Position numbers and translations under genes: made by a program. Shown here piece after piece: positions 6,055 to 27,155 of a stretch of DNA of 27,155 nucleotides (within the stretch, counting starts at the first letter, position 1; every line of letters starts with the position of its first letter). Source of the DNA: a virus. The notes beneath the pieces were generated by a model. That model made no database searches, was not told where the DNA came from, and saw nothing but the letters and a program-made list of their open reading frames with translations. The stretch is taken from the IMG/VR virus record IMGVR_UViG_3300031758_000466, positions 1 to 27,155 of that record; one strand, given 5' to 3'.

Positions 6055-6057
6055 TTG

Positions 6058-8944: not shown

Positions 8945-8945
8945 A

Positions 8946-9641: not shown

Positions 9642-10299
9642 AATTCTCTGTATATCTTTTTTCGATCTCTCTGTATTCTGGAGTATGTGGTGCTTCTAAA
9701 TAATCAAGCATGGTAACTATAGAGTATTTAGTGCCAGAAGTTACTGGCATCGCAGCATGAGAATATATAAATGATGAGGGGAATAAATAAAGATCTCCCG
9801 CCCTGGGCTTTATTTTTAAATTAAATTTGTCAAAAAATAGCTCGCCTCCTTCGTAGTCGTCATTAATATATCCAACTGAAGAAAGTACGCATATATAAGA
9901 ATATCCGTGATCTGAATGAATTTGAAAATGTTGATCTTGGCCATATTTAATAAAGTTAAATGATTCCCAATAGTTTAGAGGAGCCAAGCCAAACATTTGT
10001 CTATAGTCTTCTACTGGAGCTAACTGTACCTTGTACGAATCTTCCCAAATTTTTTCTAACTTTAGAGTAGACTCACTTTTACCAGCATCATCCCATGTAT
10101 TTTTTTTAATTTTAAAATCTGAACAATCTCTATATCTTTTATCTACCAAGGCATATCCAGTTTTTGCAGTTTTCCATTGATTTACATCAGAGCTATCTGA
10201 TAAAGTTTCTTCTAGTCTATTAATTAAATTCATTTCTGGCGTAAATACATTTCTATAGACAACAATACCTGGACCTAGAAATTCAGCATTACTTAACAT
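9634..10299 (-). CDS. 2-oxoglutarate/Fe(II) dioxygenase (5 of 6)
   Basis: A 221-residue hydroxylase with His128-x-Asp130 (FQIHSDHGY), His181 (YSHAAMPV) and Lys191 (SGTKYSIV). The core VGYINDDYEGGELFF is intact. Its N-terminus FLGPGIVVYRNVF closely matches that of the upstream paralog (IIGPGIVVYKNIF), and both share the VFPS/LFPS..IY.HAA.P ending, so these two are the most recent duplicates in the array. A GGAG site sits six bases before the start. Twelve nucleotides separate it from hydroxylase 6. Confidence 0.88.
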   Translation of the reverse strand: MLSNAEFLGPGIVVYRNVFTPEMNLINRLEETLSDSSDVNQWKTAKTGYALVDKRYRDCSDFKIKKNTWDDAGKSESTLKLEKIWEDSYKVQLAPVEDYRQMFGLAPLNYWESFNFIKYGQDQHFQIHSDHGYSYICVLSSVGYINDDYEGGELFFDKFNLKIKPRAGDLYLFPSSFIYSHAAMPVTSGTKYSIVTMLDYLEAPHTPEYREIEKRYTENYV

Positions 10300-11642: not shown

Positions 11643-12527
11643 TTAACCGATACATGAATTGCCTTCACAGTATGTTCCATATGGACACTGGAAAGAACAG
11701 AATGAAGGAGGAGAAAAGAACCCTGGCGGACCGAAGAACCCTGGCGGACCGAAGAAAGTAGGTGGACCGAAGAAAGTAGGTGGACCAAAGAAGTTTGGCG
11801 GACCAAAGAAGTTTGGCGGACCAAAGAAGTTTGGCGGACCAAAGAAAGTAGGTGGACCAAAGAAAGTAGGTGGACCGAAGAAGCTCGGTGGAGAGAAGAA
11901 TGTAGTAACTGGTCCAACTCTTTTTGCCACAGATGTACCGTTGGCATTAAGAGCATATATATCATAGCTTTGTGCAGATCCACCAGTTTCATCAATATTC
12001 TTTGAAGTTACAAGAATTCCAGTATACGAAGGTCCATCTGTAGAAGTCACTGTATAACTTGCTATAGCTTTTCCTCCAGTTGCTGGAGCATCCCATGTAA
12101 TATCATCTCTATTTGCAACTGTTGAAGTAACTGAAGCTGTCTGAATTGCTTGAGGAACAGTCGTTGCTGTTACTGAAGATGATGTTGTGGATGCAGAAGA
12201 CCCTACTGCGCTATTTGCAACAATTGTAAATGTATATGCTGTATTAGAGGCAAGGCCTTGGAATGTATATGGGCTTGAAGAAGCTGTTACAGTATATGTG
12301 CTTGGAGTTGTTGTAATTGTAAATGAGGATGCTGATGCAGATCCAGAAGGAACTGCAAATGTTAATGTGACAGCTCCACCAGTTCCAGCCGCATTTGCCT
12401 CAGAAGTTGTATTTGCTGTTGCTAGATATGGTCTTGATGTCCCAACATCTGTTGCGCTAGATATAACTACTGCTTCTGGCTGACTTATCTGACCTGAAAC
12501 TTTACCTGTTCTTTTACCTGCTGCCAT
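11643..12527 (-). CDS. Fibronectin-III-like virion protein with FFGPPx repeats
   Basis: A 294-residue protein, probably a fibre or appendage. Residues about 50-130 read as a fibronectin type III domain (VTLTFAVPSGSASASSFTIT, then YTFQGLASNTAYTFTIVANS), and about 130-205 as a second, poorer one. Residues 210-275 are eleven tandem six-residue units FF(G/S)PPx. The last 19 residues are cysteine-rich (CSFQCPYGTYCEGNSCIG), likely a small disulfide knot. The Gly-Pro-Pro units resemble the sequences that prolyl-4-hydroxylases act on, and six such enzymes follow on the same strand. It has an AGGAG ribosome site and lies 19 nt after the large fibre gene. Confidence 0.8.
   Translation of the reverse strand: MAAGKRTGKVSGQISQPEAVVISSATDVGTSRPYLATANTTSEANAAGTGGAVTLTFAVPSGSASASSFTITTTPSTYTVTASSSPYTFQGLASNTAYTFTIVANSAVGSSASTTSSSVTATTVPQAIQTASVTSTVANRDDITWDAPATGGKAIASYTVTSTDGPSYTGILVTSKNIDETGGSAQSYDIYALNANGTSVAKRVGPVTTFFSPPSFFGPPTFFGPPTFFGPPNFFGPPNFFGPPNFFGPPTFFGPPTFFGPPGFFGPPGFFSPPSFCSFQCPYGTYCEGNSCIG
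11703..11900 (-). repeat. Eleven tandem 18-bp repeats coding FFGPPx
   Basis: Exactly 198 bp of 18-bp units in frame. In translation order the sixth residue reads S, T, T, N, N, N, T, T, G, G, S, and the two end units have Ser in place of Gly. Neighbouring copies are identical or nearly so, with CCA/CCG alternation, which indicates expansion by slippage or unequal recombination. Confidence 0.95.
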
Positions 12528-18412: not shown

Positions 18413-20347
18413 CTAAGCTGATATATCTACTATCTCACAATTGCCATCTGATGTACAGGCAAGGGTCTGTGTTCCAGAAGTTCCGTCCTCTGTTTCGTAG
18501 AAAGACAAATCTTCCCAACGAATCGATTTTGGCATTTGTGCTAAAACTGCTTCGTATTCTTCTTTTGTAACTTCTTGGTATGGAGCCTGCTTATAAGTAT
18601 GATCAGAGTGTGGCAAGAATGAGATTCCAGAAACTTCATCAAAATGCTTGTATACCCAAGCTCCTACTTCCATCCATTCATCTTCTTTTACAGATACAGT
18701 GATTGAAGGCTTGTGCTCACACCATGCACGTTGATAAACAAGCCAAGTATTTAAATGCTCTATTGCTGTTAAATCATTTCTAACAATCGCACCCTCTGGT
18801 GCCTTAACTGGAAATGAAAATACGTATGTATCGTTTGGCTTCATAACATCATCTTCTACTGGAATTCCGACCTCCTTTAAAAATGTAGAGATTGGATCTC
18901 CTTTTGAGCCACGTACTGTACGAATATAATATGGTGAATGCCATGCATGCATTCCTGAAGACACCCCGACCAATTGGGAAACTGTTCCAGAAGGCTTTAC
19001 ACATGTGATAGCAGCAGACTCTTGAATCCCAATCTTCTGAGCCTCTTCTGAATTAATTGTTCTTGCGTATTCACGAAGTCCAACTAAAACTTCTTCTAAT
19101 TTCTTGATATCTTGTTTACCTGAGAAGAATTTATGTCCGAATTGTCCAGTTAAAGAAACTCCTAATAAACGCTCTTCTTCTGTGTTATCTTTCCAGATTT
19201 TACGAAGATACTTAAAGTCTGTTAGCGTTGATTGCCAAGTTCCAAGAATTGTTGCAAGACGTACTTTATTTGAAATATCCTCAACTGTATCCTTTTCACG
19301 TAATACGACTTCTGAAAGATTACAAAACTGATAAGGACGGAGAATAATTTCGGAACACGGGTTTGTTCCATAATGGATTTCAGGGTCTCTACGGCCATAC
19401 TTCGCTGCCTGCTTCTGCGCTGCCGCAACATTATAGATTCCACGTTCGCCAGACTTCGAGTCATAAAGAGATTTCCATTCTGCAATAAATTGCTCCATTT
19501 CTGGCTTACGTGAGTAAGCAACAGAGTTATTTGAAAGTGCACGTTGTGAATTGTTTTCCCACCAGTTCCCAGATTTTGCTTGAGCCATTTCAATGTCATT
19601 AATATTTGACAAAGAGATCATTGCTGATCTACGGACTCCTCCAACTACAACAATTTCTCCAATCTTACACATAATATCATGTGCTTCAATTGGTTTTAGC
19701 TGTCGTCCTGTTGCAGATTTAAACTTTGAAATAGTAAAGTCAAATAGGTTGATAAGTGGCTGTGGACCAGATGATCTTCCGCCCATTGTCTTAAGTCGAG
19801 CACCAGATGGGCGAAGTTTGCTTACATCAACAGAAGGAATATGTCCTGACCATAATAATGCAAGTAGCTCACGATATGCTTTAGCCCAACCCTGCTTTGA
19901 ATCTTCAACAGTAATTACAGTCGTAGACTTTTCTAAAGTTTCTGGAACGGGAGGAAGTTTATTAACATATTTATATTCAACAGAGAACCCTACGCCTGTT
20001 CCGCACATAAGAATATACATTGTTTCGTCAAATGAGCGTGGTGAATCTACTGGAACAAACGAGCAATTATAACCCGCAACATGATCTCTATCTAATGCAG
20101 CACCTGCAGTCATTACTGATCTCATTGATGGCATTACATCTCTATTATAAACCGCCTCTTTCATTTCTTGAAGAAGTTTTGAATCTGGAATATAATCTTT
20201 AGTTTCTTTAAGATGTTTTGTCATAAAGTCAAAATAGCGATCTACTGTCTCACCCCATGTTTCACGACGATTTTCTTCTGGAATCCATCTTGCATATCTA
20301 GACAATGCAATAAAGTTTTCATATGGGTTTTCAATAGTTCTTGACAT
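18413..20347 (-). CDS. nrdJ: Class II (B12-dependent) ribonucleoside-triphosphate reductase
   Basis: A 644-residue enzyme that turns ribonucleotides into deoxyribonucleotides with adenosylcobalamin as radical source, supplying DNA precursors. By comparison with the Lactobacillus leichmannii enzyme, Cys331 in NPCSEI is the thiyl-radical cysteine (Cys408 there), with Asn329 and Glu333 as partners. Cys342 (FCNLSE) and Cys95 (YNCSF) are the reducing pair; the 11-residue spacing from 331 to 342 is the same as 408-419. The C-terminal CTSDGNC pair (631, 637) reloads the active site. It is about 95 residues shorter than the L. leichmannii enzyme. No small subunit or activase is nearby, as expected for class II. 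The host must supply B12. Confidence 0.93.
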   Translation of the reverse strand: MSRTIENPYENFIALSRYARWIPEENRRETWGETVDRYFDFMTKHLKETKDYIPDSKLLQEMKEAVYNRDVMPSMRSVMTAGAALDRDHVAGYNCSFVPVDSPRSFDETMYILMCGTGVGFSVEYKYVNKLPPVPETLEKSTTVITVEDSKQGWAKAYRELLALLWSGHIPSVDVSKLRPSGARLKTMGGRSSGPQPLINLFDFTISKFKSATGRQLKPIEAHDIMCKIGEIVVVGGVRRSAMISLSNINDIEMAQAKSGNWWENNSQRALSNNSVAYSRKPEMEQFIAEWKSLYDSKSGERGIYNVAAAQKQAAKYGRRDPEIHYGTNPCSEIILRPYQFCNLSEVVLREKDTVEDISNKVRLATILGTWQSTLTDFKYLRKIWKDNTEEERLLGVSLTGQFGHKFFSGKQDIKKLEEVLVGLREYARTINSEEAQKIGIQESAAITCVKPSGTVSQLVGVSSGMHAWHSPYYIRTVRGSKGDPISTFLKEVGIPVEDDVMKPNDTYVFSFPVKAPEGAIVRNDLTAIEHLNTWLVYQRAWCEHKPSITVSVKEDEWMEVGAWVYKHFDEVSGISFLPHSDHTYKQAPYQEVTKEEYEAVLAQMPKSIRWEDLSFYETEDGTSGTQTLACTSDGNCEIVDISA

Positions 20348-20434
20348 TTTAAGTGTGACCTCTTCTTCCGCCTTACGGATTAATAAATTTTAATGAAACC
20401 TAAGTGTATCAAACTTTTTTTTAAGAGTCTAGGG

Positions 20435-21424
20435 CTAGCTAAATTTTTTGAATATGTGATCAAAAGAGTTCTTAGTCAACTCTAACCAATTATATTCTTC
20501 ATGTATTTTAGTTGACTGAGCATAGTAATATCCAGAATATGCATTAAAGTTAAAGACAACATCTCTCATAAGCTCAACTAGGTGTTGACGGTTTGGCTCA
20601 AAAACTTTGCCTTCGTGTGGAAATGGCCATGGAGAATCCACTAACTTTGATTTTAATTTTAATGGCCCTAAGTATTTTTCATAATGTGCCCAACTTGCTG
20701 TACATATAGTTGGCATTCCAGTAGCAAGAGCTTGAAGCGGAATAAAACCAAATCCTTCTCCATAACTTGGATACACTAAAACATCATGATCATGATATAG
20801 TCTAACTAACTCTAGATCACTTAGTTCTTCTGTTATAACCTTTACATTATTATAAATATTTTGCGGTAAACCTATTATCTCTTTATCTATGTAGTTATTA
20901 TAAACTCTGGTTGTATTATGATGATACGCTTTTATTGTAAGAGAATACTTAGGGTTATTTCCATAAAGTTCTCCAAACACATCCACCACCATTTGGCCAG
21001 CTTTTCTTGGTGCTGGTTCTCCAATGTGAAGAAACTTAATCTTATCTGATTCTCTTCTTCTTTTTGGCTTCCATATGTCTTGTATTCCATGTGGATAAAC
21101 CTTAATATTTTTATATCCATTATCTTCAAAAACATTAGCACACCAGTCTGATGTTGTCCAAATTTCATCGCAGTGATCTAGCATATTTTTCCATTTATCT
21201 GGAATTTTTGTAGATTCCCACGGAGTATATCCTATTTGATATTGACCTCTGTGCATTTTAAAATGTTCTGGCTGAGCAAAATTTAATTGTACTGGAGCTT
21301 TTGGATAAGAATATGGAACCTCATGGCCTAACTCTTTTAACGAAGTAGCTATATTTGATCCAGCATAACCATATCCATTAGAGTTCTTGAAGTTAATTGT
21401 AGGTGTAAAAAATGATATTTGCAT
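20435..21424 (-). CDS. GT4-type glycosyltransferase
   Basis: A 329-residue GT-B fold enzyme. The N-terminal domain holds YTPWESTKIPDKW and DEIWTTSDWCANVFEDNG; the C-terminal domain has FLHIGEPAPRKAG, LYHDHDVLVYPSYGEGFGFI and PLQALATGMPTI. The family usually has Glu-x7-Glu for the sugar nucleotide; here it is Glu223-x7-Gln231, a mild substitution. Phage enzymes of this kind decorate DNA, virion proteins or host surface sugars; which applies here cannot be read. The gene starts at 21424 with a weak AGAAAGA site and is divergent from the lysozyme gene across a 79-85-bp control region. Confidence 0.85.
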   Translation of the reverse strand: MQISFFTPTINFKNSNGYGYAGSNIATSLKELGHEVPYSYPKAPVQLNFAQPEHFKMHRGQYQIGYTPWESTKIPDKWKNMLDHCDEIWTTSDWCANVFEDNGYKNIKVYPHGIQDIWKPKRRRESDKIKFLHIGEPAPRKAGQMVVDVFGELYGNNPKYSLTIKAYHHNTTRVYNNYIDKEIIGLPQNIYNNVKVITEELSDLELVRLYHDHDVLVYPSYGEGFGFIPLQALATGMPTICTASWAHYEKYLGPLKLKSKLVDSPWPFPHEGKVFEPNRQHLVELMRDVVFNFNAYSGYYYAQSTKIHEEYNWLELTKNSFDHIFKKFS

Positions 21425-21446
21425 ATAATCTTTCTGGTCAACTGAC

Positions 21447-21467
21447 TTGACAGTAACTTACTGACAA
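21447..21467. promoter_or_regulatory. Imperfect 21-bp palindrome, operator candidate
   Basis: Half-sites TTG-A-CAGTAA and TTACTG-A-CAA around a single central C, with one mismatched pair. It covers the -35 box and most of the spacer of the lysozyme promoter, so a dimeric protein bound here would block it. It could also affect the divergent glycosyltransferase gene. Confidence 0.5.
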
Positions 21468-21476
21468 TGCTATTCT
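21447..21476 (+). promoter_or_regulatory. Sigma-70-type promoter of the lysozyme gene
   Basis: TTGACA (21447-21452) and TATTCT (21471-21476) with an 18-bp spacer, 33 bp before the lysozyme ATG. It is the best -35/-10 pair on the plus strand in this part and the only one in the divergent gap. Confidence 0.6.
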
Positions 21477-21509
21477 TATAGTTCGTTATCTCTAAAGGAG
21501 GAAATGCCA

Positions 21510-22070
21510 ATGGAGAATATAAAACAAAAGCTTAGTGATGTTGCCCATCACTGGACCGCAATAGTAATGATAACATTATTCCTATTCGGAAACAACACGG
21601 TTGTTCCAGTAATGCCAGCATCTCAAGCTATTGGGGTGGAAACACCTAAATCGACAGTACAAATAAAGAAAGAAACCTTAGAGAAGTACAGCACTACTGT
21701 ATACAAGCCTTCTGAGATGCTAACAGACGGAGAACTAAAAGAACTCCTATCAGCTGTTGGCTTTGAAGGAAAAGCCCTTAAACAGGCTTGGGCTATTGCA
21801 AAGGCAGAATCTAATTCTAGACCTATGGCTTACAATGGTAACAGGAAAACTGGAGACAGTTCCTACGGAATTTTTCAGATTAATATGTTGGGTGAACTCG
21901 GCATTGATCGTAAAGAAAAATTTGATCTAAAGTCAAACATTTTATTGTTTGACCCAGTAATTAACGCAGAGATAACGTATTATATGACTAAGGGCGGAAT
22001 TGATTGGTCATCATGGTCTTCCCTAAATGGGGTAAGATATAAAGAATTCTTAAAAGAATTCAAAAATTAG
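21510..22070 (+). CDS. Membrane-anchored lysozyme/transglycosylase (SLT-like)
   Basis: A 186-residue cell-wall enzyme. Residues 16-27 form a hydrophobic signal or signal-anchor (TAIVMITLFLFG). After a linker, residues 70-186 resemble the soluble lytic transglycosylase fold: Glu100 in AIAKAESNSRPMA is the likely catalytic acid, and SSYGIFQIN is the family motif, with Asn and Asp-rich helices after it. It would cut peptidoglycan at lysis or at entry. The ATG at 21510 has AAGGAGG eight bases upstream; the ATG at 21504 is too close to that site. First of a run of five plus-strand genes. Confidence 0.85.
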   Translation: MENIKQKLSDVAHHWTAIVMITLFLFGNNTVVPVMPASQAIGVETPKSTVQIKKETLEKYSTTVYKPSEMLTDGELKELLSAVGFEGKALKQAWAIAKAESNSRPMAYNGNRKTGDSSYGIFQINMLGELGIDRKEKFDLKSNILLFDPVINAEITYYMTKGGIDWSSWSSLNGVRYKEFLKEFKN

Positions 22071-22082
22071 AAAGGTAGGTAT

Positions 22083-22298
22083 ATGAAGATACAATACGTA
22101 TCCAAATATATAGCTCTTTCAGAAGAGGGCCTTGTATCGAAAATGGAATGTCCAATCGATCAAGGTTCTCTTCTTTCTAATCTTGACGCTGAAGATAATA
22201 TATTTTTATATTGCCTATCGTGTGATTATAGAAAAAATATAGGAACTAAATTATATGATGACATTGTAAGGATGGTAAATCATAATGAAAAAATGTAG
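22083..22298 (+). CDS. Small zinc-ribbon-like protein
   Basis: A 71-residue protein with Cys23 (MECPID) and Cys44-x2-Cys47 (LYCLSCDYRK). This looks like a zinc ribbon in which the second cysteine of the first pair is replaced by Asp26, a possible fourth ligand. The spacing between the knuckles is about 20 residues, normal for the fold. The ribosome site AAGGTAGG is six bases before the ATG. It follows the lysozyme gene by 12 nt and overlaps the next small gene by 14 nt, so the group is one operon. Function unknown. Confidence 0.7.
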   Translation: MKIQYVSKYIALSEEGLVSKMECPIDQGSLLSNLDAEDNIFLYCLSCDYRKNIGTKLYDDIVRMVNHNEKM

Positions 22299-22398
22299 CG
22301 AAAATGAATGCCAATGCGAATCTACTCCTATGGTAGTAACTGATAACATGGGAAGAGAAATATTTTGGGAAGACTTAGGTAGACCAGATGGACAATAA
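22285..22398 (+). CDS. 37-residue cysteine-containing peptide
   Basis: A tiny gene between two overlapping neighbours: it starts 14 nt before the end of the zinc-ribbon gene and ends 11 nt inside the next. It begins MKKCSENECQCESTP and ends REIFWEDLGRPDGQ. Three cysteines lie within nine residues (CSENECQC), a pattern able to bind a metal. The ribosome site is weak (GATGG), so translation probably depends on coupling. The stop-start overlaps on both sides argue for a real gene. Confidence 0.55.
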   Translation: MKKCSENECQCESTPMVVTDNMGREIFWEDLGRPDGQ

Positions 22399-22600
22399 TA
22401 TAGAAAATAATAATTTAGAAGATAATTTGCCTATGGTAAATTATATTATGCTAGCTAGAATATATGACGTTCTTTGTCTTTTAGCCAGCAAAGTTTGCGG
22501 TGATGAAGAAATTAGTAAGATGGTAAATTACCATGAGGAGGGCTACCTTTTAGGACCAAGCCCTTCATATAACCCAGTAAAGGAAAATGAAAATGGATAA
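22388..22600 (+). CDS. Small hypothetical protein
   Basis: Seventy residues, acidic at the start (NNIENNNLEDNLPM) with a helical middle (ARIYDVLCLLASKVCGDEEI) and a Pro/Ser-rich end. AGGTAG lies six bases before the ATG. It overlaps both neighbours by a few bases, in keeping with the tightly coupled operon. I do not recognise a family. The helix could be amphipathic and mediate dimer formation. Confidence 0.65.
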   Translation: MDNNIENNNLEDNLPMVNYIMLARIYDVLCLLASKVCGDEEISKMVNYHEEGYLLGPSPSYNPVKENENG

Positions 22601-22787
22601 AGAAAAAGTAGTAATGGCAATGTTGGAAAAAATAAATAATGATACTCGTGCAATGGGTGTTGCAAATGGTGTAGACCTTATGACTATTGAGCAGCAAGTG
22701 ATGCAGAATCAAAATAGCTTAATTTATATGCTATCTAACCTGCATGACTTTATCATTGAAAAAGGATTATTTAAAGATCCCTCTTGA
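22593..22787 (+). CDS. Small helical hypothetical protein
   Basis: Sixty-four residues from the ATG at 22593, which is eight bases after AGGA; an ATG six bases earlier is too close to that site. Almost entirely helical: DKEKVVMAMLEKINNDTRAM, then TIEQQVMQNQNSLIYMLSNL and DFIIEKGLF. This looks like a short coiled-coil protein. It is the last gene of the lysozyme operon; its stop codon lies inside the -35 box of the small RNA promoter that follows. Confidence 0.65.
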   Translation: MDKEKVVMAMLEKINNDTRAMGVANGVDLMTIEQQVMQNQNSLIYMLSNLHDFIIEKGLFKDPS

Positions 22788-22812
22788 CTTTGAAAAAGTC
22801 TAATATTACAAT
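22784..22812 (+). promoter_or_regulatory. Consensus-like promoter of a small RNA
   Basis: TTGACT (22784-22789), a 17-bp spacer and TACAAT (22807-22812). Only a non-coding stretch ending in a terminator follows, so this promoter seems to serve an RNA gene. Confidence 0.75.
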
Positions 22813-22817
22813 TAGTA

Positions 22818-22902
22818 AGTATTAGTCGTAGCATTCGTGCTCCTGATACTTGCACGAAAGTGCAGCAAGTCCCAATCGGATCCGCCTCTGGTTGGGATTT
22901 TT
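22818..22902 (+). ncRNA. Structured small RNA of about 85 nt
   Basis: No ribosome site or reading frame is seen between the promoter and the terminator. Three hairpins can form: AGCA-TTCG-TGCT (22830-22841, a UUCG tetraloop), TGCAC-GAAA-GTGCA (22851-22864, a GAAA tetraloop) and the terminator stem at 22870. In addition TTCGTGC (22834-22840) pairs perfectly with GCACGAA (22852-22858), which excludes the first two hairpins. The RNA may therefore switch between two folds. I do not recognise a known RNA family; a regulatory RNA against host or phage messages is the simplest reading. Confidence 0.65.
22870..22902 (+). terminator. Rho-independent terminator
   Basis: Stem TCCCAATC/GGTTGGGA (22870-22877 with 22890-22897, one G-U pair), 12-nt loop, then TTTTT. 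It ends the small RNA and shields the next gene from read-through. Confidence 0.85.
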
Positions 22903-22915
22903 GCTTGTCTAGGGG

Positions 22916-22921
22916 TATAAT
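22916..22921 (+). promoter_or_regulatory. -10 box of a leaderless gene
   Basis: TATAAT, six bases, then the ATG at 22928. No ribosome site fits in between. It lies 13 bases after the terminator T-run. Confidence 0.65.
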
Positions 22922-22927
22922 AGAAGA

Positions 22928-23197
22928 ATGATTAGGCAGGAAATTATATCCTTAAACTCTACCCCAGTTGATTTAACTACATCTGGCAACATTGATCCTG
23001 CAATAGTTATGTCAATTCAAAATATTATGACAGAAGGCTTCGCTTATCTTGGCAATGAAAGCGTTTCAAATTCTATCTACGGACATAAACTTTATCCTGG
23101 ACAATCATTTACAATTGAGCTTGCTCCAAATGATAGAGTTTTTGCAGTAGGGGATGCTGGAGTTTCAATAGCTAAGTTTATATTGGATCTAGGATGA
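22928..23197 (+). CDS. Small virion-associated protein (putative)
   Basis: An 89-residue beta-rich protein. QEIISLNSTPVDLTT at the start, then FAYLGNESVSNSIYGHKLYP and GQSFTIELAPNDRVFAVGDA. Small proteins with this YLG...PG.SF.IEL...D..FAV pattern occur next to capsid or fibre genes in many phages and may decorate the virion; that is family-level knowledge, and the call is tentative. The gene is leaderless (ATG six bases after TATAAT) and its end overlaps the next gene by 4 nt (ATGA). Confidence 0.65.
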   Translation: MIRQEIISLNSTPVDLTTSGNIDPAIVMSIQNIMTEGFAYLGNESVSNSIYGHKLYPGQSFTIELAPNDRVFAVGDAGVSIAKFILDLG

Positions 23198-23826
23198 GCC
23201 AGCCAAGAATACGGATAACTACACCGCCTTTTGACCCGCTAACAGTAGAGTTTGTTTCTACAATAAAACATTTGGTTAAAAGCGATTATAATGGAACTAT
23301 AAATAAAGGTCAGGCTGTTTATGTAACTGGGTCTACTGGAAACGATGGAACTAACATGCTTATAAATAGGGCAAGTAATGGTATAGAAATGACTTCATCG
23401 AAAACAATGGGGTTATTAGAAACTAGCCTTGCTAAAAATGGTATTGGATATGTTATTACTGAAGGTTTGCTTGCTGGGCTCAATACAAACGGGGCAAATC
23501 CTGGAGATCCTGTTTGGCTTGGAGTAGATGGCAACTTAATCTACGGGCTAACTAATAAACCAGTGGCACCTGCTCATTTAGTTTTTATAGGAATTGTAAC
23601 CAGGAAAAACCAAAACAACGGCGAGATATTCGTTAAGGTACAAAATGGTTTTGAGGTAGAAGAAATTCACAATGTTGTTCTTACAAATAAAGCGGCAGGA
23701 GACACAATAGTTTGGAATGGTGGTAACTGGATTAATAGAAATATTAATGGGGCTACTGGATCATTTACATCTAATGACGGTAAAACAATTACCGTTACTA
23801 ATGGAATAATTACATCTATAGTATAA
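23194..23826 (+). CDS. Virion/tail-fibre-associated protein (putative)
   Basis: A 210-residue beta-rich protein. Residues about 25-155 follow a pattern common in phage fibre proteins: NKGQAVYVTGSTGNDGTNML, SSKTMGLLETSLAKNGIGYV, EGLLAGLNTNGANPGDPVWL and APAHLVFIGIVTRKNQNNGE, then IFVKVQNGFEVEEIHNVVLT. The C-terminus ends in GSFTSNDGKTITVTNGIITS, a short strand cap. It is translated by ATGA overlap with the 89-residue gene. It is unusual that these virion-like genes lie on the plus strand, away from the main structural block, with their own promoter. Confidence 0.7.
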   Translation: MSQPRIRITTPPFDPLTVEFVSTIKHLVKSDYNGTINKGQAVYVTGSTGNDGTNMLINRASNGIEMTSSKTMGLLETSLAKNGIGYVITEGLLAGLNTNGANPGDPVWLGVDGNLIYGLTNKPVAPAHLVFIGIVTRKNQNNGEIFVKVQNGFEVEEIHNVVLTNKAAGDTIVWNGGNWINRNINGATGSFTSNDGKTITVTNGIITSIV

Positions 23827-23827
23827 T
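23822..23827 (+). promoter_or_regulatory. -10 box of a leaderless gene
   Basis: TATAAT overlapping the TAA stop of the preceding gene, six bases before the ATG at 23834. Confidence 0.5.
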
Positions 23828-23833
23828 ATATAT

Positions 23834-23977
23834 ATGACTAGAGATCATTTTAGCAAAGTTATGCACAGCCCATACTTTCAAACAGACCATTATGAGAATG
23901 AATCCGCAGGCGGTAAAATGGAAAAAAAAATTGAGGGCTGGTTTAAGCGTTTCTTTAAAAAAGAAAAGAAGAATTAA
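23834..23977 (+). CDS. 47-residue basic peptide
   Basis: A short gene starting six bases after TATAAT with no ribosome site. It begins MTRDHFSKVMHSPYFQTDHY and ends in an amphipathic, very basic helix (EKKIEGWFKRFFKKEKKN). The tail with alternating aromatic and Lys/Arg residues resembles membrane-active or nucleic-acid-binding peptides. An antihost or lysis-helper role is possible, but nothing proves it. It is the last plus-strand gene before a convergent minus-strand block. Confidence 0.6.
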   Translation: MTRDHFSKVMHSPYFQTDHYENESAGGKMEKKIEGWFKRFFKKEKKN

Positions 23978-24023
23978 TTATATCCCCGAATAAGTGCGAA
24001 AAAAGTGCGCCGTCGGTAGAGAA

Positions 24024-24341
24024 CTACCAAATTTCATCTTGATCATATTCAGGAATATGCAATACTGGCTTATATAGATCATCATTTGTTAAATCGTATA
24101 ATATTCTCATAATCGTCATACATGCCTCATGAGAGTCCATATACCACAATCTGCATAGTCCACTTTCAAAGTTTAAGCAACTTGCCTCTAATCGGCTCTT
24201 AAGACGGTCTACGACCCATTCTAGAGCGGCGGAGGCGATAAGATTATCATCTACATAATAGTTCTGCTCTCTATATCTAGAATCAGATATATACAAGGAC
24301 AATTCCTGTACTATTTGTTTATTTAATTGAGTATAGCTCAT
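24024..24341 (-). CDS. Hypothetical protein, leaderless
   Basis: A 105-residue helical protein: MSYTQLNKQIVQELSLYISD, DDNLIASAALEWVVDRLKSR, CLNFESGLCRLWYMDSHEAC, then MTIMRILYDLTNDDLY and an acidic end. I do not recognise it. The ATG at 24341 lies six bases after TATTAT with no ribosome site, so it is probably leaderless. It is the last gene of the minus-strand small-gene block and converges with the basic-peptide gene. Confidence 0.7.
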   Translation of the reverse strand: MSYTQLNKQIVQELSLYISDSRYREQNYYVDDNLIASAALEWVVDRLKSRLEASCLNFESGLCRLWYMDSHEACMTIMRILYDLTNDDLYKPVLHIPEYDQDEIW

Positions 24342-24347
24342 AGCGTG

Positions 24348-24353
24348 ATAATA
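24348..24353 (-). promoter_or_regulatory. -10 box of a leaderless gene
   Basis: Minus-strand TATTAT, six bases before the ATG at 24341; a second -10-like TATACT lies further upstream. Confidence 0.5.
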
Positions 24354-24404
24354 ACCAAGGCATAGTATATTACTAGCAAGATAGCCGACGATACGACGAA
24401 TGAA

Positions 24405-24554
24405 TTATATAGATTCGAATGTTTCTTTTTCATCTTCGTCCCAAGAGTCGAAATTAAATGCATCTTCGAATCCCGCCTTTTTTAATGTAAGAAATCCAAC
24501 AACTAAAGATAGTGTTGTTAAAAACACTGCCGCAAATCCAAGTTTCTTTTTCAT
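24405..24554 (-). CDS. 49-residue single-span membrane peptide
   Basis: A small gene with AGGA five bases before the ATG. It has a basic start (MKKK), one hydrophobic helix (LGFAAVFLTTLSLVVGFLTL), a KKAGFED turn and a strongly acidic, aromatic tail (NFDSWDEDEKETFESI). The charge pattern suggests the N-terminus in the cytoplasm or a signal-anchor. The ribosome site overlaps the stop of the zinc-finger gene before it. The leader GTCAACTAGGATAATT resembles that of the 29-residue peptide upstream, so the two may share an origin. Confidence 0.65.
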   Translation of the reverse strand: MKKKLGFAAVFLTTLSLVVGFLTLKKAGFEDAFNFDSWDEDEKETFESI

Positions 24555-24556
24555 AA

Positions 24557-24691
24557 TTATCCTAGTTGACTACAACTTATGTGTATCTCACATAATCTAA
24601 CAAGTGTACCATCTTTTAATATTTTACTTGTGTATCCATACTTATCACAGTATGAGCATTTCTTGCTTGGTTCAAATGTACAGCTTTCCAT
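24557..24691 (-). CDS. 44-residue zinc-finger peptide
   Basis: Starts MESCTFEPSKKCSYCDKYG and carries C12-x2-C15-x18-C34-x2-H37, a small zinc-binding pattern with KDGTLVRLCEIH as second knuckle. The reading frame is open up to 24769, but that upstream part is antiphase to the 23-residue peptide gene and lacks a ribosome site. The ATG at 24691 follows GAGG/GGGAAG and sits 11 nt after the stop of the 23-residue gene, so translation may be coupled. Function unknown; a DNA or protein adaptor is plausible. Confidence 0.6.
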   Translation of the reverse strand: MESCTFEPSKKCSYCDKYGYTSKILKDGTLVRLCEIHISCSQLG

Positions 24692-24702
24692 AGCTTCCCG
24701 CC

Positions 24703-24774
24703 TCAAAAAATCCAATAAGCCAATAACACTAAGGTTGTTGGTCCAAATATTAATAGTGCTTGTTCCCATGCCAT
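24703..24774 (-). CDS. 23-residue membrane peptide, leaderless
   Basis: MAWEQALLIFGPTTLVLLAY followed by WIF: one hydrophobic span and almost nothing else. The ATG lies exactly six bases after a perfect TATAAT, the same geometry as other genes here. Its stop overlaps the ribosome site of the zinc-finger gene. The reading could be chance, but the promoter position and the coupling favour a real gene. It might also act as a leader peptide for the gene after it. Confidence 0.5.
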   Translation of the reverse strand: MAWEQALLIFGPTTLVLLAYWIF

Positions 24775-24780
24775 AGATTT

Positions 24781-24786
24781 ATTATA
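24781..24786 (-). promoter_or_regulatory. -10 box (TATAAT) downstream of the tRNA
   Basis: Minus-strand TATAAT five bases after the 3' end of the tRNA and six bases before the ATG at 24774. Confidence 0.5.
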
Positions 24787-24791
24787 CCATG

Positions 24792-24866
24792 TAGGCCTAG
24801 TGAGATTTGAACTCACAGTCGATTGTATATAAGACAATTGCTTTCACCAGATTAAGCTATAGGCCC
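24792..24866 (-). tRNA. tRNA-Ile (anticodon UAU)
   Basis: A 75-nt cloverleaf: acceptor GGGCCTA/TAGGCCT (one G-U), D stem GCTT/AAGC, anticodon stem ATTGT/ACAAT with loop CTTATAT, T stem GTGAG/CTCAC with loop TTCAAAT. Loop position 33 is T, and the anticodon reads TAT, which decodes AUA. The discriminator base is A and CCA is not encoded. Most bacteria read AUA with a lysidine-modified CAU tRNA, so a UAU tRNA is an unusual phage choice. AUA codons are common in the genes of this window. Confidence 0.88.
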
Positions 24867-24941
24867 TAGTTTGTATTGCAGAATTAACCCACATATACAA
24901 ACAAGGATTGCTACTATGCCTATCCATGTTAATGTCTTCAT
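24852..24941 (-). CDS. 29-residue membrane peptide ending inside the tRNA
   Basis: MKTLTWIGIVAILVCICGLI followed by LQYKLGPIA. One membrane span with a basic end on each side. AGGAT lies six bases before the ATG at 24941. The last four codons and the stop lie inside the tRNA acceptor and D arm, so processing of the tRNA would cut the message. The leader is nearly the same as that of the 49-residue peptide gene. Small size limits confidence. Confidence 0.45.
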   Translation of the reverse strand: MKTLTWIGIVAILVCICGLILQYKLGPIA

Positions 24942-24948
24942 ATATATC

Positions 24949-24960
24949 CTAGTCGACTAG
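24949..24960. repeat. Perfect palindrome CTAGTCGACTAG
   Basis: Twelve bp without mismatch, overlapping the ribosome site of the 29-residue peptide gene. A related GTCAACTAGG occurs before the 49-residue gene. It could be an operator or hide the ribosome site in the RNA. Confidence 0.5.
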
Positions 24961-24978
24961 TATTTATAATATATATAA

Positions 24979-25113
24979 ATGTTAATAAAATTTTATTTTT
25001 CTATTATATATATTATATTTGTTTTTTACTGGATACTTCCAGATTTTAAGCATACAACCCCTATACCCCTTTTAAGATTTCTAAAAGAGAACCCCGAAAT
25101 TGTCCATTTATAA
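24979..25113 (+). CDS. Possible 44-residue membrane peptide
   Basis: MLIKFYFSIIYIIFVFYWIL followed by PDFKHTTPIPLLRFLKENPE. A membrane span and a Pro-rich tail. A -10-like TAATAT lies six bases before the ATG, the local leaderless geometry. But the surrounding DNA is so rich in A and T that both a -10 box and a hydrophobic reading can arise by chance, and the other strand is the leader of the small-gene block. Low confidence. Confidence 0.25.
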   Translation: MLIKFYFSIIYIIFVFYWILPDFKHTTPIPLLRFLKENPEIVHL

Positions 25114-25219
25114 GATAGCAATTCATCGGTTATAGCAGTTGCGTTTATTTAACTTCCGTCATCATCGCACTTGGAGTTTAACCCCTTGATATTATCTCCG
25201 AAAACTTTCCAAGATTAGA

Positions 25220-25249
25220 AGTATAACATTATGTTTTTCATGTAGTCAA
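25220..25249 (-). promoter_or_regulatory. Promoter for the minus-strand small-gene block
   Basis: Minus-strand TTGACT (25244-25249) and TATACT (25220-25225), spacer 18 bp. The leader to the first downstream gene (ATG 24941) is about 270 nt. That leader is AT-rich, holds a CTTTTA/TAAAAG inverted repeat near 25070-25090 and the palindrome at 24949, and shows no minus-strand gene I can support. Confidence 0.65.
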
Positions 25250-25356
25250 GACTTACAAGATTTTTTATGGTTAGCAAGTGTCATGTATGCAAAAGCAGAT
25301 CTTACTTCTAGCTCCCGCCCACATTGATCACATATAACGATTCTACTTGAGGCCAT
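25246..25356 (-). CDS. 36-residue CCHC zinc-finger peptide, leaderless
   Basis: MASSRIVICDQCGRELEVRS followed by AFAYMTLANHKKSCKS. Ligands C9-x2-C12-x17-H30-x3-C34 make a complete classic zinc finger with a basic end, so it may bind nucleic acid. The ATG is seven bases after TACAAT of a good promoter, and no ribosome site is present. Its stop codon overlaps the -35 box of the next promoter, showing how tightly this block is packed. Confidence 0.7.
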   Translation of the reverse strand: MASSRIVICDQCGRELEVRSAFAYMTLANHKKSCKS

Positions 25357-25363
25357 GTTAGAT

Positions 25364-25393
25364 ATTGTAGCAGTATCGTATAATTGTGGTCAA
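25364..25393 (-). promoter_or_regulatory. Promoter of the leaderless zinc-finger gene
   Basis: Minus-strand TTGACC (25388-25393), 18-bp spacer, TGC-TACAAT (-10 at 25364-25369). Transcription would start at the ATG at 25356. Confidence 0.7.
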
Positions 25394-25418
25394 CTGCTTT
25401 TTCAGATTTCACAAAATG

Positions 25419-25529
25419 TTAATAGAGATTTATTTTGTATGATCCACACTTTTGACATGTCCGATTTGTCCAGATAGTCCGCCCATATGACTGGTCAATG
25501 TGATGAGCATCACAAGGTATTTTTTTAAT
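25419..25529 (-). CDS. Possible 36-residue zinc-ribbon peptide without ATG
   Basis: A reading frame that gives KKIPCDAHHIDQSYGRTIWT and then NRTCQKCGSYKINLY. C6, H9 or H10 and C25-x2-C28 form a believable zinc ribbon. No ATG, GTG or TTG is in frame after the stop upstream; the only start-like codon is ATT at 25529. It covers the CRP-type box on the other strand, whose palindrome codes part of CDAHH. It may be a decayed gene, a gene with a rare start, or an accident of the regulatory DNA. Confidence 0.3.
   Translation of the reverse strand: MKKIPCDAHHIDQSYGRTIWTNRTCQKCGSYKINLY
25499..25514. promoter_or_regulatory. CRP/GlxR-type box TGTGA-N6-TCACA (1)
   Basis: TGTGATGAGCATCACA, a palindrome with 7-bp arms and a perfect match to the consensus of cAMP-receptor proteins, including actinobacterial Crp and GlxR. 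Its centre is 72.5 bp before the first base of the -10 box at 25579. Confidence 0.65.
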
Positions 25530-25562
25530 ATGTCTTAAATGTCCGAATTGCGACTTGCTATC

Positions 25563-25584
25563 TGTCGGATCCCGATGCTAAGAT
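25563..25584 (+). promoter_or_regulatory. Early-type promoter 1 (TGTC-N12-TAAGAT)
   Basis: TGTC at 25563-25566, twelve bases ending CGATGC, then TAAGAT at 25579-25584 with an extended -10 TGC. Start predicted near 25591, where an ATG lies in frame with the gene that follows. Confidence 0.6.
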
Positions 25585-25617
25585 CATTACATGAACTCAA
25601 CGAAAGAAGGTCAAAAC

Positions 25618-25716
25618 ATGAAAAGTATTTCATGCGCTGGATGCGATAAATTTATCATGGAGATGCCAGAGGATGAGGCAGAATTTCTCACCGCCTTGTG
25701 TCTGGATTGCTTTTAA
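25618..25716 (+). CDS. 32-residue four-cysteine zinc peptide
   Basis: MKSISCAGCDKFIMEMPEDE followed by AEFLTALCLDCF: C6-x2-C9-x18-C28-x2-C31, a minimal zinc knuckle pair with an acidic middle. AGAAGG lies seven bases before the ATG in a leader (AACGAAAGAAGGTC) also found before the gene at 26655. A second start is possible: the ATG at 25591 is six bases after the -10 box and in frame, which would add nine residues (MNSTKEGQN) and make a leaderless form. Confidence 0.65.
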   Translation: MKSISCAGCDKFIMEMPEDEAEFLTALCLDCF

Positions 25717-25717
25717 T

Positions 25718-25739
25718 TGTCCGAGCCTTATGCTACAAT
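25718..25739 (+). promoter_or_regulatory. Early-type promoter 2 (TGTC-N12-TACAAT)
   Basis: TGTC at 25718-25721, twelve bases ending TTATGC, TACAAT at 25734-25739. It lies two bases after the stop of the four-cysteine gene and drives the four-gene group at 25774-26397. Confidence 0.6.
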
Positions 25740-25773
25740 TCCAACTATAACCAACTAGAGAAAGAAGAACACT

Positions 25774-25962
25774 ATGATGAGTAAATGGGATACAATTCAG
25801 GCAGATGTTGCCGACGCATATGTTTATCTTGATGAACAAGATGAGCCAGATGAACAAGATGAGGACGGAGATATTTTCGGATTCTCTAAGGCTATGAGCA
25901 TTGACCACCTATCCGATCAAGAGATTGCAGAACTAGCACTTACGCTAGATTGGAAAGAATAA
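25774..25962 (+). CDS. Small acidic hypothetical protein
   Basis: Sixty-two residues (MMSKWDTIQADVADAYVYLD), with an acidic near-repeat DEQDEPDEQDEDGD and a helical end (LSDQEIAELALTLDWKE). The acidity might mimic DNA, as some phage antihost proteins do, but that is only a charge argument. AGAAAGAAG precedes the first ATG; the second ATG at 25777 is an option. The stop overlaps the next start (TAATG). Confidence 0.7.
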   Translation: MMSKWDTIQADVADAYVYLDEQDEPDEQDEDGDIFGFSKAMSIDHLSDQEIAELALTLDWKE

Positions 25963-26114
25963 TGAGCGAAGGTATTTTTACGATTGAACTAGGTCGCTAT
26001 GGATTCATGCTAGATACTGAATGGGCATATGTGTCTCTCTCATGGCCGTTGCTTATCTTGTCTGCGCTATCTGCTACAATTTACACTATCGTAAAACGAA
26101 TGAGGAGTAAGTAA
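25962..26114 (+). CDS. 50-residue single-span membrane protein
   Basis: MSEGIFTIELGRYGFMLDTE followed by a membrane helix (YVSLSWPLLILSALSATIYT) and a basic tail VKRMRSK, so the C-terminus should stay in the cytoplasm. It starts in the TAATG overlap of the preceding gene and ends in another one. A copy of the early-type promoter motif lies inside its coding region at 26059-26080. Confidence 0.65.
   Translation: MSEGIFTIELGRYGFMLDTEWAYVSLSWPLLILSALSATIYTIVKRMRSK
26059..26080 (+). promoter_or_regulatory. Early-type promoter 3 (inside a gene)
   Basis: TGTC at 26059-26062, twelve bases ending TATCTGC, TACAAT at 26075-26080, inside the 50-residue gene. It could add transcription of the two genes after it. 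Confidence 0.45.
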
Positions 26115-26212
26115 TGAATAGACTACTAACAACCGCCGTCCAACTATTGTTAGCAATTCCGACTATCTATCTAATTAGATGGATGATCGCCGACTATAAG
26201 GAGAACATGTAA
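26114..26212 (+). CDS. 32-residue single-span membrane peptide
   Basis: MNRLLTTAVQLLLAIPTIYL followed by IRWMIADYKENM. One membrane helix with Arg at each end. It starts in a TAATG overlap with the 50-residue gene and ends in the TAATG of the next. The AAGGAG near its end is the ribosome site of the next gene. Translation seems to be by re-initiation. Confidence 0.6.
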   Translation: MNRLLTTAVQLLLAIPTIYLIRWMIADYKENM

Positions 26213-26397
26213 TGAAAACGGAATTCGAAAAAGAATTAGAGATAAAAGAAGCATACGATGCAATGCTTGATGAAGTTTATACCGATGTAAAGATCGGTTA
26301 CTCTACATTCACCGCCTCAGAGATTCTTTTTAATTGTGATCCCGTCATGTATCATCAAGGTCTCTTGGACTATACCGACTCAATAGAAAAAGATTAG
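26212..26397 (+). CDS. Small acidic hypothetical protein
   Basis: Sixty-one residues, acidic and helical at the start (MKTEFEKELEIKEAYDAMLD), then VYTDVKIGYSTFTASEILFN and a Tyr/His-rich end. AAGGAG lies ten bases before the ATG. Last of four genes linked by TAATG. I do not recognise a family. A 9-bp hairpin follows the stop codon. Confidence 0.7.
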   Translation: MKTEFEKELEIKEAYDAMLDEVYTDVKIGYSTFTASEILFNCDPVMYHQGLLDYTDSIEKD

Positions 26398-26414
26398 GGG
26401 CGTGAGGGGCGTGT

Positions 26415-26436
26415 CAGCTTGACAAACGTCAAGCTG
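26415..26436 (+). terminator. Hairpin CAGCTTGAC/GTCAAGCTG after the four-gene group
   Basis: A perfect 9-bp stem with an AAAC loop, 17 bp after the stop codon, extendable by two pairs. No T-run follows, so it would be a terminator of the kind without a U-tail or an RNA-stability element. A direct repeat GGGGCGTG precedes it at about 26398-26412. Confidence 0.5.
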
Positions 26437-26503
26437 GCCCGCAAAGGCGTGGGGGACCAGTCACATTTAAGAGATGACCATTAAATCCCCTGAATCTACG
26501 GCG

Positions 26504-26529
26504 TGTCGATTTGACAGACAAATCGGACA
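26504..26529. repeat. Near-perfect inverted repeat TGTCGATTTG / CAAATCGGACA
   Basis: Ten-bp arms that differ by one inserted base, loop ACAGA. The right arm (26517-26530) is the reverse complement of a 14-base stretch at 25457-25470. Confidence 0.55.
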
Positions 26530-26536
26530 TATTGCG

Positions 26537-26552
26537 TGTGATGCTTATCACA
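26537..26552. promoter_or_regulatory. CRP/GlxR-type box TGTGA-N6-TCACA (2)
   Basis: TGTGATGCTTATCACA, perfect in the ten conserved positions. Its centre is 72.5 bp before the first base of the -10 box at 26617, the same distance as in the first copy. It is also nested in a larger GCGTGTG/CACACGC inverted repeat. Confidence 0.65.
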
Positions 26553-26600
26553 TAGCACACGCTCCATATATTGAGACAAACCCTTGCACAATTAACAAAA

Positions 26601-26622
26601 TGTCGGTGCCTAATGGTACAAT
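26601..26622 (+). promoter_or_regulatory. Early-type promoter 4 (TGTC-N12-TACAAT)
   Basis: TGTC at 26601-26604, twelve bases ending TAATGG, TACAAT at 26617-26622 (extended -10). It drives the gene at 26655 through a 32-nt spacer with the AACGAAAGAAGGTC leader. Confidence 0.65.
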
Positions 26623-26654
26623 ACTCTCATACAACAAACGAAAGAAGGTCGCAC

Positions 26655-26855
26655 ATGTCCGCAAACCTATACACAGTCCCAGCCCTACTAGTAGGCAAGA
26701 CATATCGCTCAGATAGTTTAGAGGGCGAGATCATCTCAGCCGAGCCTCACAATACGGCTTGGTATGACGGCGCAGAGGCTTACCGCGTAGAGGTAAAGTC
26801 CTACGATATGGGAATCGCAAAGTATTCTTATCGCACAGTAGCCGTTCAGGTATAA
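26655..26855 (+). CDS. Small beta-rich hypothetical protein
   Basis: Sixty-six residues: MSANLYTVPALLVGKTYRSD, LEGEIISAEPHNTAWYDGAE and AYRVEVKSYDMGIAKYSYRT. The alternating pattern suggests a small beta barrel. AGAAGG lies six bases before the ATG. The frame is open further upstream to 26571, but that part is promoter DNA. Its promoter module copies that of the gene at 25618, so both should be co-regulated. Confidence 0.72.
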   Translation: MSANLYTVPALLVGKTYRSDSLEGEIISAEPHNTAWYDGAEAYRVEVKSYDMGIAKYSYRTVAVQV

Positions 26856-26882
26856 CCTAGAATCGAAACAGGGGCAGTTTCA

Positions 26883-26894
26883 GAGAATGTTCTC
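26883..26894. repeat. Palindrome GAGAA-TG-TTCTC
   Basis: Five-bp arms. A second AT-TCTCT at about 26911-26917 can pair with AGAGAAT here instead, giving alternative stems between the 66-residue gene and the last promoter. Confidence 0.35.
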
Positions 26895-26934
26895 GCCCAA
26901 TGTCGTAAGTAAGAATTCTCTCCCTTCGGGGATA

Positions 26935-26956
26935 TGTCGGTACTATCTGATACAAT
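26935..26956 (+). promoter_or_regulatory. Early-type promoter 5 (TGTC-N12-TACAAT)
   Basis: TGTC at 26935-26938, twelve bases ending TATCTGA, TACAAT at 26951-26956. No CRP-type box lies at the corresponding upstream distance. Confidence 0.6.
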
Positions 26957-26986
26957 TCCAATAATCAACTAATGAAAGGTAAACTA

Positions 26987-27155
26987 ATGTACACACTAAG
27001 TATTGCATATGACGGAAAGAGAATTGCATCATGGGATTTTGCAGATGCTCTATCTGCCGTCCATGAATTCGATAAATGCGTAGATGCTGGCGACTCTAAA
27101 GAATACGCTACCTACAACTTGTCTGAGCCTAATGGTAAAATGCACACTAAGAACT
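26987..27155 (+). CDS. Hypothetical protein, N-terminal part (cut by window edge)
   Basis: Fifty-six codons up to the window end: MYTLSIAYDGKRIASWDFAD, ALSAVHEFDKCVDAGDSKEY and ATYNLSEPNGKMHTKN. It reads as a small alpha/beta protein with a strand start, a helix and a final NLS.P.GKM.TK motif that I associate with small early proteins of actinobacterial phages. AAAGG lies seven bases before the ATG. Driven by early-type promoter 5. Confidence 0.7.
   Translation, partial: MYTLSIAYDGKRIASWDFADALSAVHEFDKCVDAGDSKEYATYNLSEPNGKMHTKN

Follow-up and report, generated by a model that had tools for sequence, protein, structure and literature searches.

An apparently undescribed family of phage small RNAs with an invariant terminator loop and a predicted target in a phage gene leader

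The stretch of DNA described here, referred to as the window, consists of 27,155 bases of the IMG/VR virus record IMGVR_UViG_3300031758_000466. Among its minus-strand genes are those for a ribonucleotide reductase (RNR) and for structural proteins that include the portal, the prohead protease and tail proteins. It also encodes a tRNA-Ile, a glycosyltransferase and a lysozyme-like protein. On the plus strand lies the element in question, a short structured RNA consisting of three hairpins (P1, P2 and P3) behind a promoter, the third of which is a terminator (Table 1). This RNA is a member of a large, widespread and apparently undescribed family of phage small RNAs (sRNAs). The loop of its terminator does not vary within the family, and it is complementary to a conserved element directly in front of a phage gene family, here called A3.

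Table 1. Coordinates of the RNA, its parts and the RNR leader hairpin in the window
Feature	Position	Strand	Remarks
Sigma-70-type promoter TTGACT-17-TACAAT	22784..22812	+	10/12 consensus positions; kept in relatives
RNA, about 85 nucleotides (nt)	22819..22903	+	ends inferred: 5' from the -10 box, 3' from the terminator
P1 hairpin	22817..22851	+	outer stem AAGUAUUAG/CUGAUACUU; computed fold
P2 hairpin GCAC-GAAA-GUGC	22852..22863	+	P2-like hairpin throughout the aligned members
P3, rho-independent terminator hairpin with U tail	22867..22902	+	stem covaries
Terminator loop AUCCGCCU	22880..22887	+	proposed seed; invariant
RNR leader hairpin UCCG..CGGA, containing AGGCGGA	20350..20380	-	RNR gene at 18413-20347 (-)

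A structured RNA and its family

An earlier note, made from the letters of the window alone, had described a free-standing structured RNA with this promoter, hairpins closed by UUCG and GAAA tetraloops, a rho-independent terminator and no reading frame. All of these parts are present. No open reading frame (ORF) of at least 40 amino acids on the plus strand of the window overlaps the RNA. The region 20000-27155 holds 34 promoter-like sites, compared with 29.1 +/- 5.6 in shuffled sequence, so that a single site is within chance, and the promoter element is conserved 5' of the RNA in relatives. Its TTGA is absent from four RNA-bearing loci of the RNR-selected set introduced below (L208, L209, L210 and L191, which has TTGCTT).

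The computed fold of the RNA has an energy of -37.3 kcal/mol, as against -20.3 +/- 2.9 kcal/mol for shuffled sequences (z = -5.9), and none of 200 shuffles is as good. Within P1, an asymmetric internal loop (UCGU/C) is followed by an inner stem, AGCA/UGCU, which closes the UUCG loop. The minimum free energy (MFE) structure of the window leaves P2 unpaired, and forcing P2 costs 1.2 kcal/mol.

Evidence for the structure comes also from an alignment of 49 representatives, dereplicated at 90%. RNAalifold recovers P1 and the terminator from it, and 14 of 21 pairs show double changes; these are the compensatory changes in relatives by which the earlier note proposed to check the RNA. In P1 they occur at all seven modelled pairs. 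The consensus structure is paired in 96.6% of cells, and 111 cells hold double changes where shuffles give 32.6 +/- 6.2 (0 of 500 reach the observed number). The covariation score is 0.403; shuffles give 0.211 +/- 0.009 and slid controls no more than 0.094, the latter comparison favouring the unslid version because the consensus structure was taken from the same alignment. A P2-like local hairpin of at least 4 base pairs is found in 49 of 49 members, built from 30 distinct stems and closed mostly by tetraloops such as GCAA, UUCG, AGCA and UUAG; P2 is misaligned by MAFFT, and the hairpins picked probably include a few that are not P2 itself.

Several searches define the extent of the family. 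When loci are picked via two flanking small proteins, the RNA is found in 26/26 and 10/10 of them. A scan for a DNA pattern of promoter and loop returns at least 120 stretches with 97 distinct sequences, of which 74 pass a hairpin test; 23 fail it and were discarded as chance matches. A relaxed scan gives 127 matches, at most one per locus, of which one (L078) was judged false, removed, and also kept out of the alignment. Loci can be selected by their RNR instead, the set being the best 80 of 586 loci. Of its members with at least 4 kb upstream, 42 of 45 have the hairpin. A covariance model, which matches the window at 22816-22904 with 84.9 bits, adds L204 and L206, where the motif is kept and the stem is broken, bringing the count to 44 of 45. 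The sole locus without the RNA is L228, on contig G006. In a set of 79 loci whose RNRs are more distant, the same model finds the RNA in three (L300, L310 and L314), with sequences typical of the clade.

Outside this range, no homologue was found in named phages, the BLAST matches there being short and inside annotated genes. Prokaryote genome contigs scanned with two patterns for host or prophage copies give no match. As the earlier note had supposed, no known family fits: at the gathering threshold, Rfam finds only tRNAs in the window and six relatives. For three members, with E limits relaxed to 5, 2 and 2, it returns only matches at chance level, and 6C RNA is not among them. Nothing on this RNA was found in the open-access literature. 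As far as the searched collections show, the family appears to belong to one clade of freshwater phages of about 110 kb.

Two other RNA-like elements were seen during these searches. One is a further match of the covariance model, L285 (E 0.09), which does not look homologous. It is an unrelated stretch of three hairpins with a terminator, upstream of the RNR at L285:6765-6860 (-) in a Streptomyces-type phage contig, and there is complementarity between the loop of its terminator, GGGGCCUAGCC, and GCUAGGCCC in the same stretch. The other is a candidate non-coding RNA in L158 (Genie2), where a TTGACA-17-TACGAT promoter and then a terminator lie at about 6710-6911 (-), intergenic and beside a glycosyltransferase gene.

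The terminator loop and the leader of A3

The conserved functional element of the family is the 8-nt terminator loop AUCCGCCU, which the earlier note had not singled out. Among 55 distinct members chosen by neighbouring proteins, all 55 are without change at all eight positions, in a search that tolerated up to two loop mismatches. The filter used for this count missed 26 of the 80 RNR-selected loci, many of them short-flanked; some of those missed, such as L204, L206, L226 and L070, do carry the RNA. The stem positions that flank the loop vary in compensatory fashion. In the divergent L164 and L191 new stems hold the same loop, and in L204 and L206 the loop is intact although the adjoining stem is broken.

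When the leaders of orthologs were compared across six whole contigs, the result pointed to start sites. The complement of the loop, AGGCGGA, stands at the start site of A3, a gene 13.6-16.7 kb from the RNA and on the same strand in six contigs. In the phage of the window, A3 would lie past the window end, and its presence there is assumed. A profile search supplied a larger set, the best 80 of 133 loci. Of its 45 distinct leaders, 43 have AGGCGGA before the ATG (78 of 80 loci) and two have AGGTGGA.

Of 43 distinct leader stretches, 38 are long enough to be aligned. The bases A-G-G-C-G-G-A are conserved in 97/100/100/95/100/100/100% of them, the next base in 32% and the preceding base in 71%. 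The conserved block is exactly the seven complementary bases, 1-6 nt from the ATG. The Shine-Dalgarno (SD) sequence proper, GAAAGG in many A3 leaders, ends inside the 7-mer. Since CGGA falls in the spacer between SD and AUG, pairing with 16S rRNA gives no reason for its conservation.

The proteins themselves are much more variable, with a mean identity of 45%; the first seven members have 89-141 residues, and identity to the first of them is 32-40%. A cruder scan covered 47 families, and the choice of start lowered A3 there to 29 of 42 leaders; the most conserved 7-mer among families below 60% identity is that of A3, again AGGCGGA. For three A3 leaders, pairing with the loop region is computed at -13.4 to -15.7 kcal/mol, and pairing of the same leaders with a typed 16S tail at -10.8 to -13.9 kcal/mol. 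In several phages, including L241 and L248 (the A3 genes of contigs G002 and G005), a tandem AAGGCGGAAGGCGGA stands at the A3 start, as if the element had been doubled. A3 has no match of weight in Pfam or PHROGs. Its predicted structure is all-helical (predicted local distance difference test, pLDDT, 71.5; predicted template modelling score, pTM, 0.48) and has no fold match. A3 and the RNA share their distribution in the clade, and neither occurs in the distant relatives examined.

Natural losses of the RNA serve as controls. All 17 contigs with both the RNA and A3 (G001-G005, G007 and G016-G026) have AGGCGGA. Three contigs, G013, G014 and G006, span the site with RNR and A3 present and are without the RNA; G013 is probably complete, as its ends overlap. 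The leaders of G013 and G014 read AGGTGGA, within AGAGGTGGA, which is a better match to the 16S tail. The A3 of L453 is matched at 99-100% identity by the A3 proteins of these two contigs and of G003, a contig with the RNA and AGGCGGA. Comparing AGGCGGA with and without the RNA gives a Fisher p of 0.016, in a sample where G013 and G014 are related and G006 is opposite. Three more contigs (G015, G027 and G028) also are without the RNA, and they have no RNR, so that they cannot be taken as spanning the site.

A proposed mechanism and its alternatives

With its own promoter and terminator, no ORF, and a predicted target encoded elsewhere, the RNA has the features of a base-pairing sRNA that acts in trans. 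In the proposed mechanism, a strong promoter of host type would produce the three-hairpin RNA. P1 and P2 would form a stable scaffold, and the third hairpin would both terminate transcription and present an exposed C-rich loop of 6-8 nt. The loop would pair with AGGCGGA in the A3 message, covering the end of the SD sequence and the spacer, and ribosome binding would be blocked. The A3 message would probably be destabilised as well. The position of the pairing suggests repression rather than activation. Judged from sequence, a trans-acting phage sRNA whose main function is pairing of the loop with A3 is the probable explanation.

Several observations weigh against this explanation. The match between loop and leader is only 7 base pairs long. 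G006 has lost the RNA yet retains AGGCGGA, and G013 and G014 are close relatives, so that they do not count as independent events; their AGGUGGA could, moreover, still pair through G-U. The leader of the RNR, which was the first candidate, had to be given up as a conserved target, since covariation of its hairpin has removed GGCGGA in several phages where the RNA is retained. Thus, GGCGGA is found in the RNR leaders of 70 of the 80 RNR-selected loci, while those of L169, L170, L171, L118, L207 and L217 have no match and the RNA loop is unchanged there. A regulon comprising SD sites across the genome was also considered and rejected. AGGCGG at SD positions is 4.2-fold enriched genome-wide (22 of 222), but this is not significant against proper controls, with p = 0.19 against the other one-mismatch SD variants pooled and p = 0.12 against three distant genomes, and an 8-mer permutation test over ortholog leaders is not significant either. 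The RNR leader, in most relatives, and other phage leaders with AGGCGGA may still be further targets.

The same loop could instead have its main target in a host RNA, whether an mRNA, an rRNA or a host sRNA, the match to A3 being secondary or a coincidence of purine-rich and pyrimidine-rich sequence. A seed that is invariant across diverged phages would suit a conserved host target, AGGCGG is no more than modestly enriched at phage start sites genome-wide, and the 16S rRNA of E. coli contains AGGCGG twice and GGCGGA once. The explanation is unlikely, because it does not account for an A3 block that is limited to exactly the seven complementary bases and is altered solely in contigs without the RNA. 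As to rRNA in particular, it was rejected as a target, the matches being 6-mers only, in E. coli rRNA used as a stand-in. Invariance of the loop within a changing stem, together with a single copy per locus, would also be expected if the loop were the binding site of a protein, the RNA serving a protein of the phage or host as decoy or cofactor while A3 keeps AGGCGGA separately, for instance for autoregulation. Exact complementarity over 7 nt and the correlated change would then be left without explanation, and we know of no protein that binds AUCCGCCU, which makes a protein site decidedly improbable. Still harder to maintain is a mere unit of promoter and terminator, insulating the rightward cassette from convergent tRNA genes by (bidirectional) termination. 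The nearest tRNA is indeed on the opposite strand in 45 of the 47 members having one, sometimes 2-7 nt from the terminator. A terminator needs neither a covarying P1 and P2 nor an invariant 8-nt loop, however, and the RNA occurs also far from tRNAs, with a tRNA within 500 nt in 13 of 84.

Almost no credence can be given to a riboswitch-like switch between two folds, which was the interpretation in the earlier note. The pairing on which it was based exists exactly as described: TTCGTGC (22834-22840) and GCACGAA (22852-22858) are complementary over 7 nt. The resulting fold has -32.4 kcal/mol, 4.9 kcal/mol less stable than the MFE structure. The P1 interior shows Watson-Crick complementarity of at least 6 to the P2 region in 6 of 49 members, or 7 of 49 counting the window's own 7-nt match, and in some of these the complementarity runs with different letters. 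Its mean length is 4.4, compared with 4.0 in shuffles. The alternative fold is confined to the window's own small subclade, and even there it is the less stable one. The next gene downstream, moreover, has a -10 box of its own. Membership in a riboswitch or attenuator class was rejected on both counts, lack of conservation and the separate -10 box. What stands of the earlier interpretation is a free-standing structured RNA, probably regulatory; its mutually exclusive folds are not conserved. A second seed in the apical AUCCCAC of P1 was likewise rejected, as it is missing in many members and its complement is not enriched.

A more far-reaching version of the A3 explanation can be offered tentatively. 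The 8-nt seed and the 7-nt A3 element, in many members together with further genes such as RNR, may coevolve as an sRNA-mRNA circuit throughout the clade, a phage counterpart of the 6C/B11 mechanism of the hosts. Loss of the RNA could then precede reversion of the target to an ordinary SD sequence.

Known systems, phage group and further features

The closest parallel is the 6C RNA of mycobacteria and other Actinobacteria, called B11 in M. marinum and described there as having three stem-loops, of which the C-rich terminator loop binds beside the ribosome-binding sites of its targets and blocks translation (PMC12395582). In C. glutamicum, 6C RNA is given as about 100 nt long, its defining feature being two stem-loops with about six cytosines each (PMC4046766). 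Independence of RNA chaperones is indicated by the title of a cited paper. The phage RNA shares the layout of three stem-loops, the third a rho-independent terminator with a C-rich loop, and would share repression at the ribosome-binding site: complementarity and conservation are seen for A3, and repression is predicted. It differs in the loop, here AUCCGCCU, in having a simple small hairpin as P2, in being encoded by a phage, and in having one phage gene as its main predicted target. Membership in 6C was rejected, as there is no match to the Rfam covariance model and the two C-tract stem-loops are not present.

Other phage RNAs are less similar. The sRNAs 24B_1, IpeX, AsxR and VpdS of enterobacterial and vibrio phages are reported as small phage-made RNAs that act on phage or host transcripts (PMC12197685). 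These come from proteobacterial prophages, several being Hfq-linked, and the comparison with them at the level of sequence was through Rfam scans only. Highly expressed non-coding RNAs are reported from Actinobacteria phages too, namely the cluster A mycobacteriophages L5, D29 and StarStuff. Their main RNA comes from a genome-end region of about 500 bp and is without a canonical terminator (PMC5712189), and no loop seed or target is known to us for it. The RNA-based prophage replication origins of Alma and LadyBird are a further instance of non-coding RNA in actinobacteriophages; as presented there, they are tied to parABS and prophage replication, while the phage RNA here ends in a terminator (PMC7157519).

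The host of the RNA-bearing phages is likely actinobacterial. The indications are the affinity of the RNR, gene order, a WhiB protein and a probably leaderless gene. The nearest relatives of the window RNR, at about 66%, are in Streptomyces phages of Stanwilliamsviridae, with which the window agrees in the order glycosyltransferase, RNR, portal, protease. WhiB is encoded in 6 of 7 related contigs of about 100-115 kb, and among 14 control genomes the family matched only one, Corynebacterium glutamicum. The ORF at 22928 (+), downstream of the RNA, has TATAAT 6 bases 5' of its ATG (22916-22928), so that its message is probably leaderless.

Should the proposed mechanism hold, actinobacterial phages would regulate genes of their own through sRNAs that act by a terminator loop, as sRNAs of their hosts are known to do, and a new RNA family would become usable for annotating phage contigs. 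Metagenomic contigs alone yield the family, the invariant seed, the predicted target and the natural losses. To our knowledge, hardly any work exists on the regulatory RNAs of phages from the environment that are uncultured.

Further features of these phages were seen. The hairpin of the RNR leader is conserved directly 5' of the SD sequence, its arms covarying as CCGC..GCGG, CTGCC..GGCAG, TCGC..GCGA and GCCGTC..GACGGC (L160-L232). Streptomyces phage Genie2 has a hairpin with other letters in its RNR leader, and cis-regulation of RNR is possible. Many genes of the clade have at their start sites the frequent motif AACGAAAGG, which corresponds to the upstream half of a perfect SD sequence (G001-G007 leaders, L241-L281). 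GC skew, considered as a sign of a replication origin, follows gene direction and is uninformative. Finally, the window contains an unusual tandem array of seven genes at 5506-10299 (-), with matches to phrog_7084 in two of them and to one shared set of 2OG-Fe(II) oxygenase / DNA endonuclease PHROGs in five, as well as 18-base repeats of the GGCGGACCGAAGAA type at 11725-11833 (+), inside the minus-strand gene 11643-12527.
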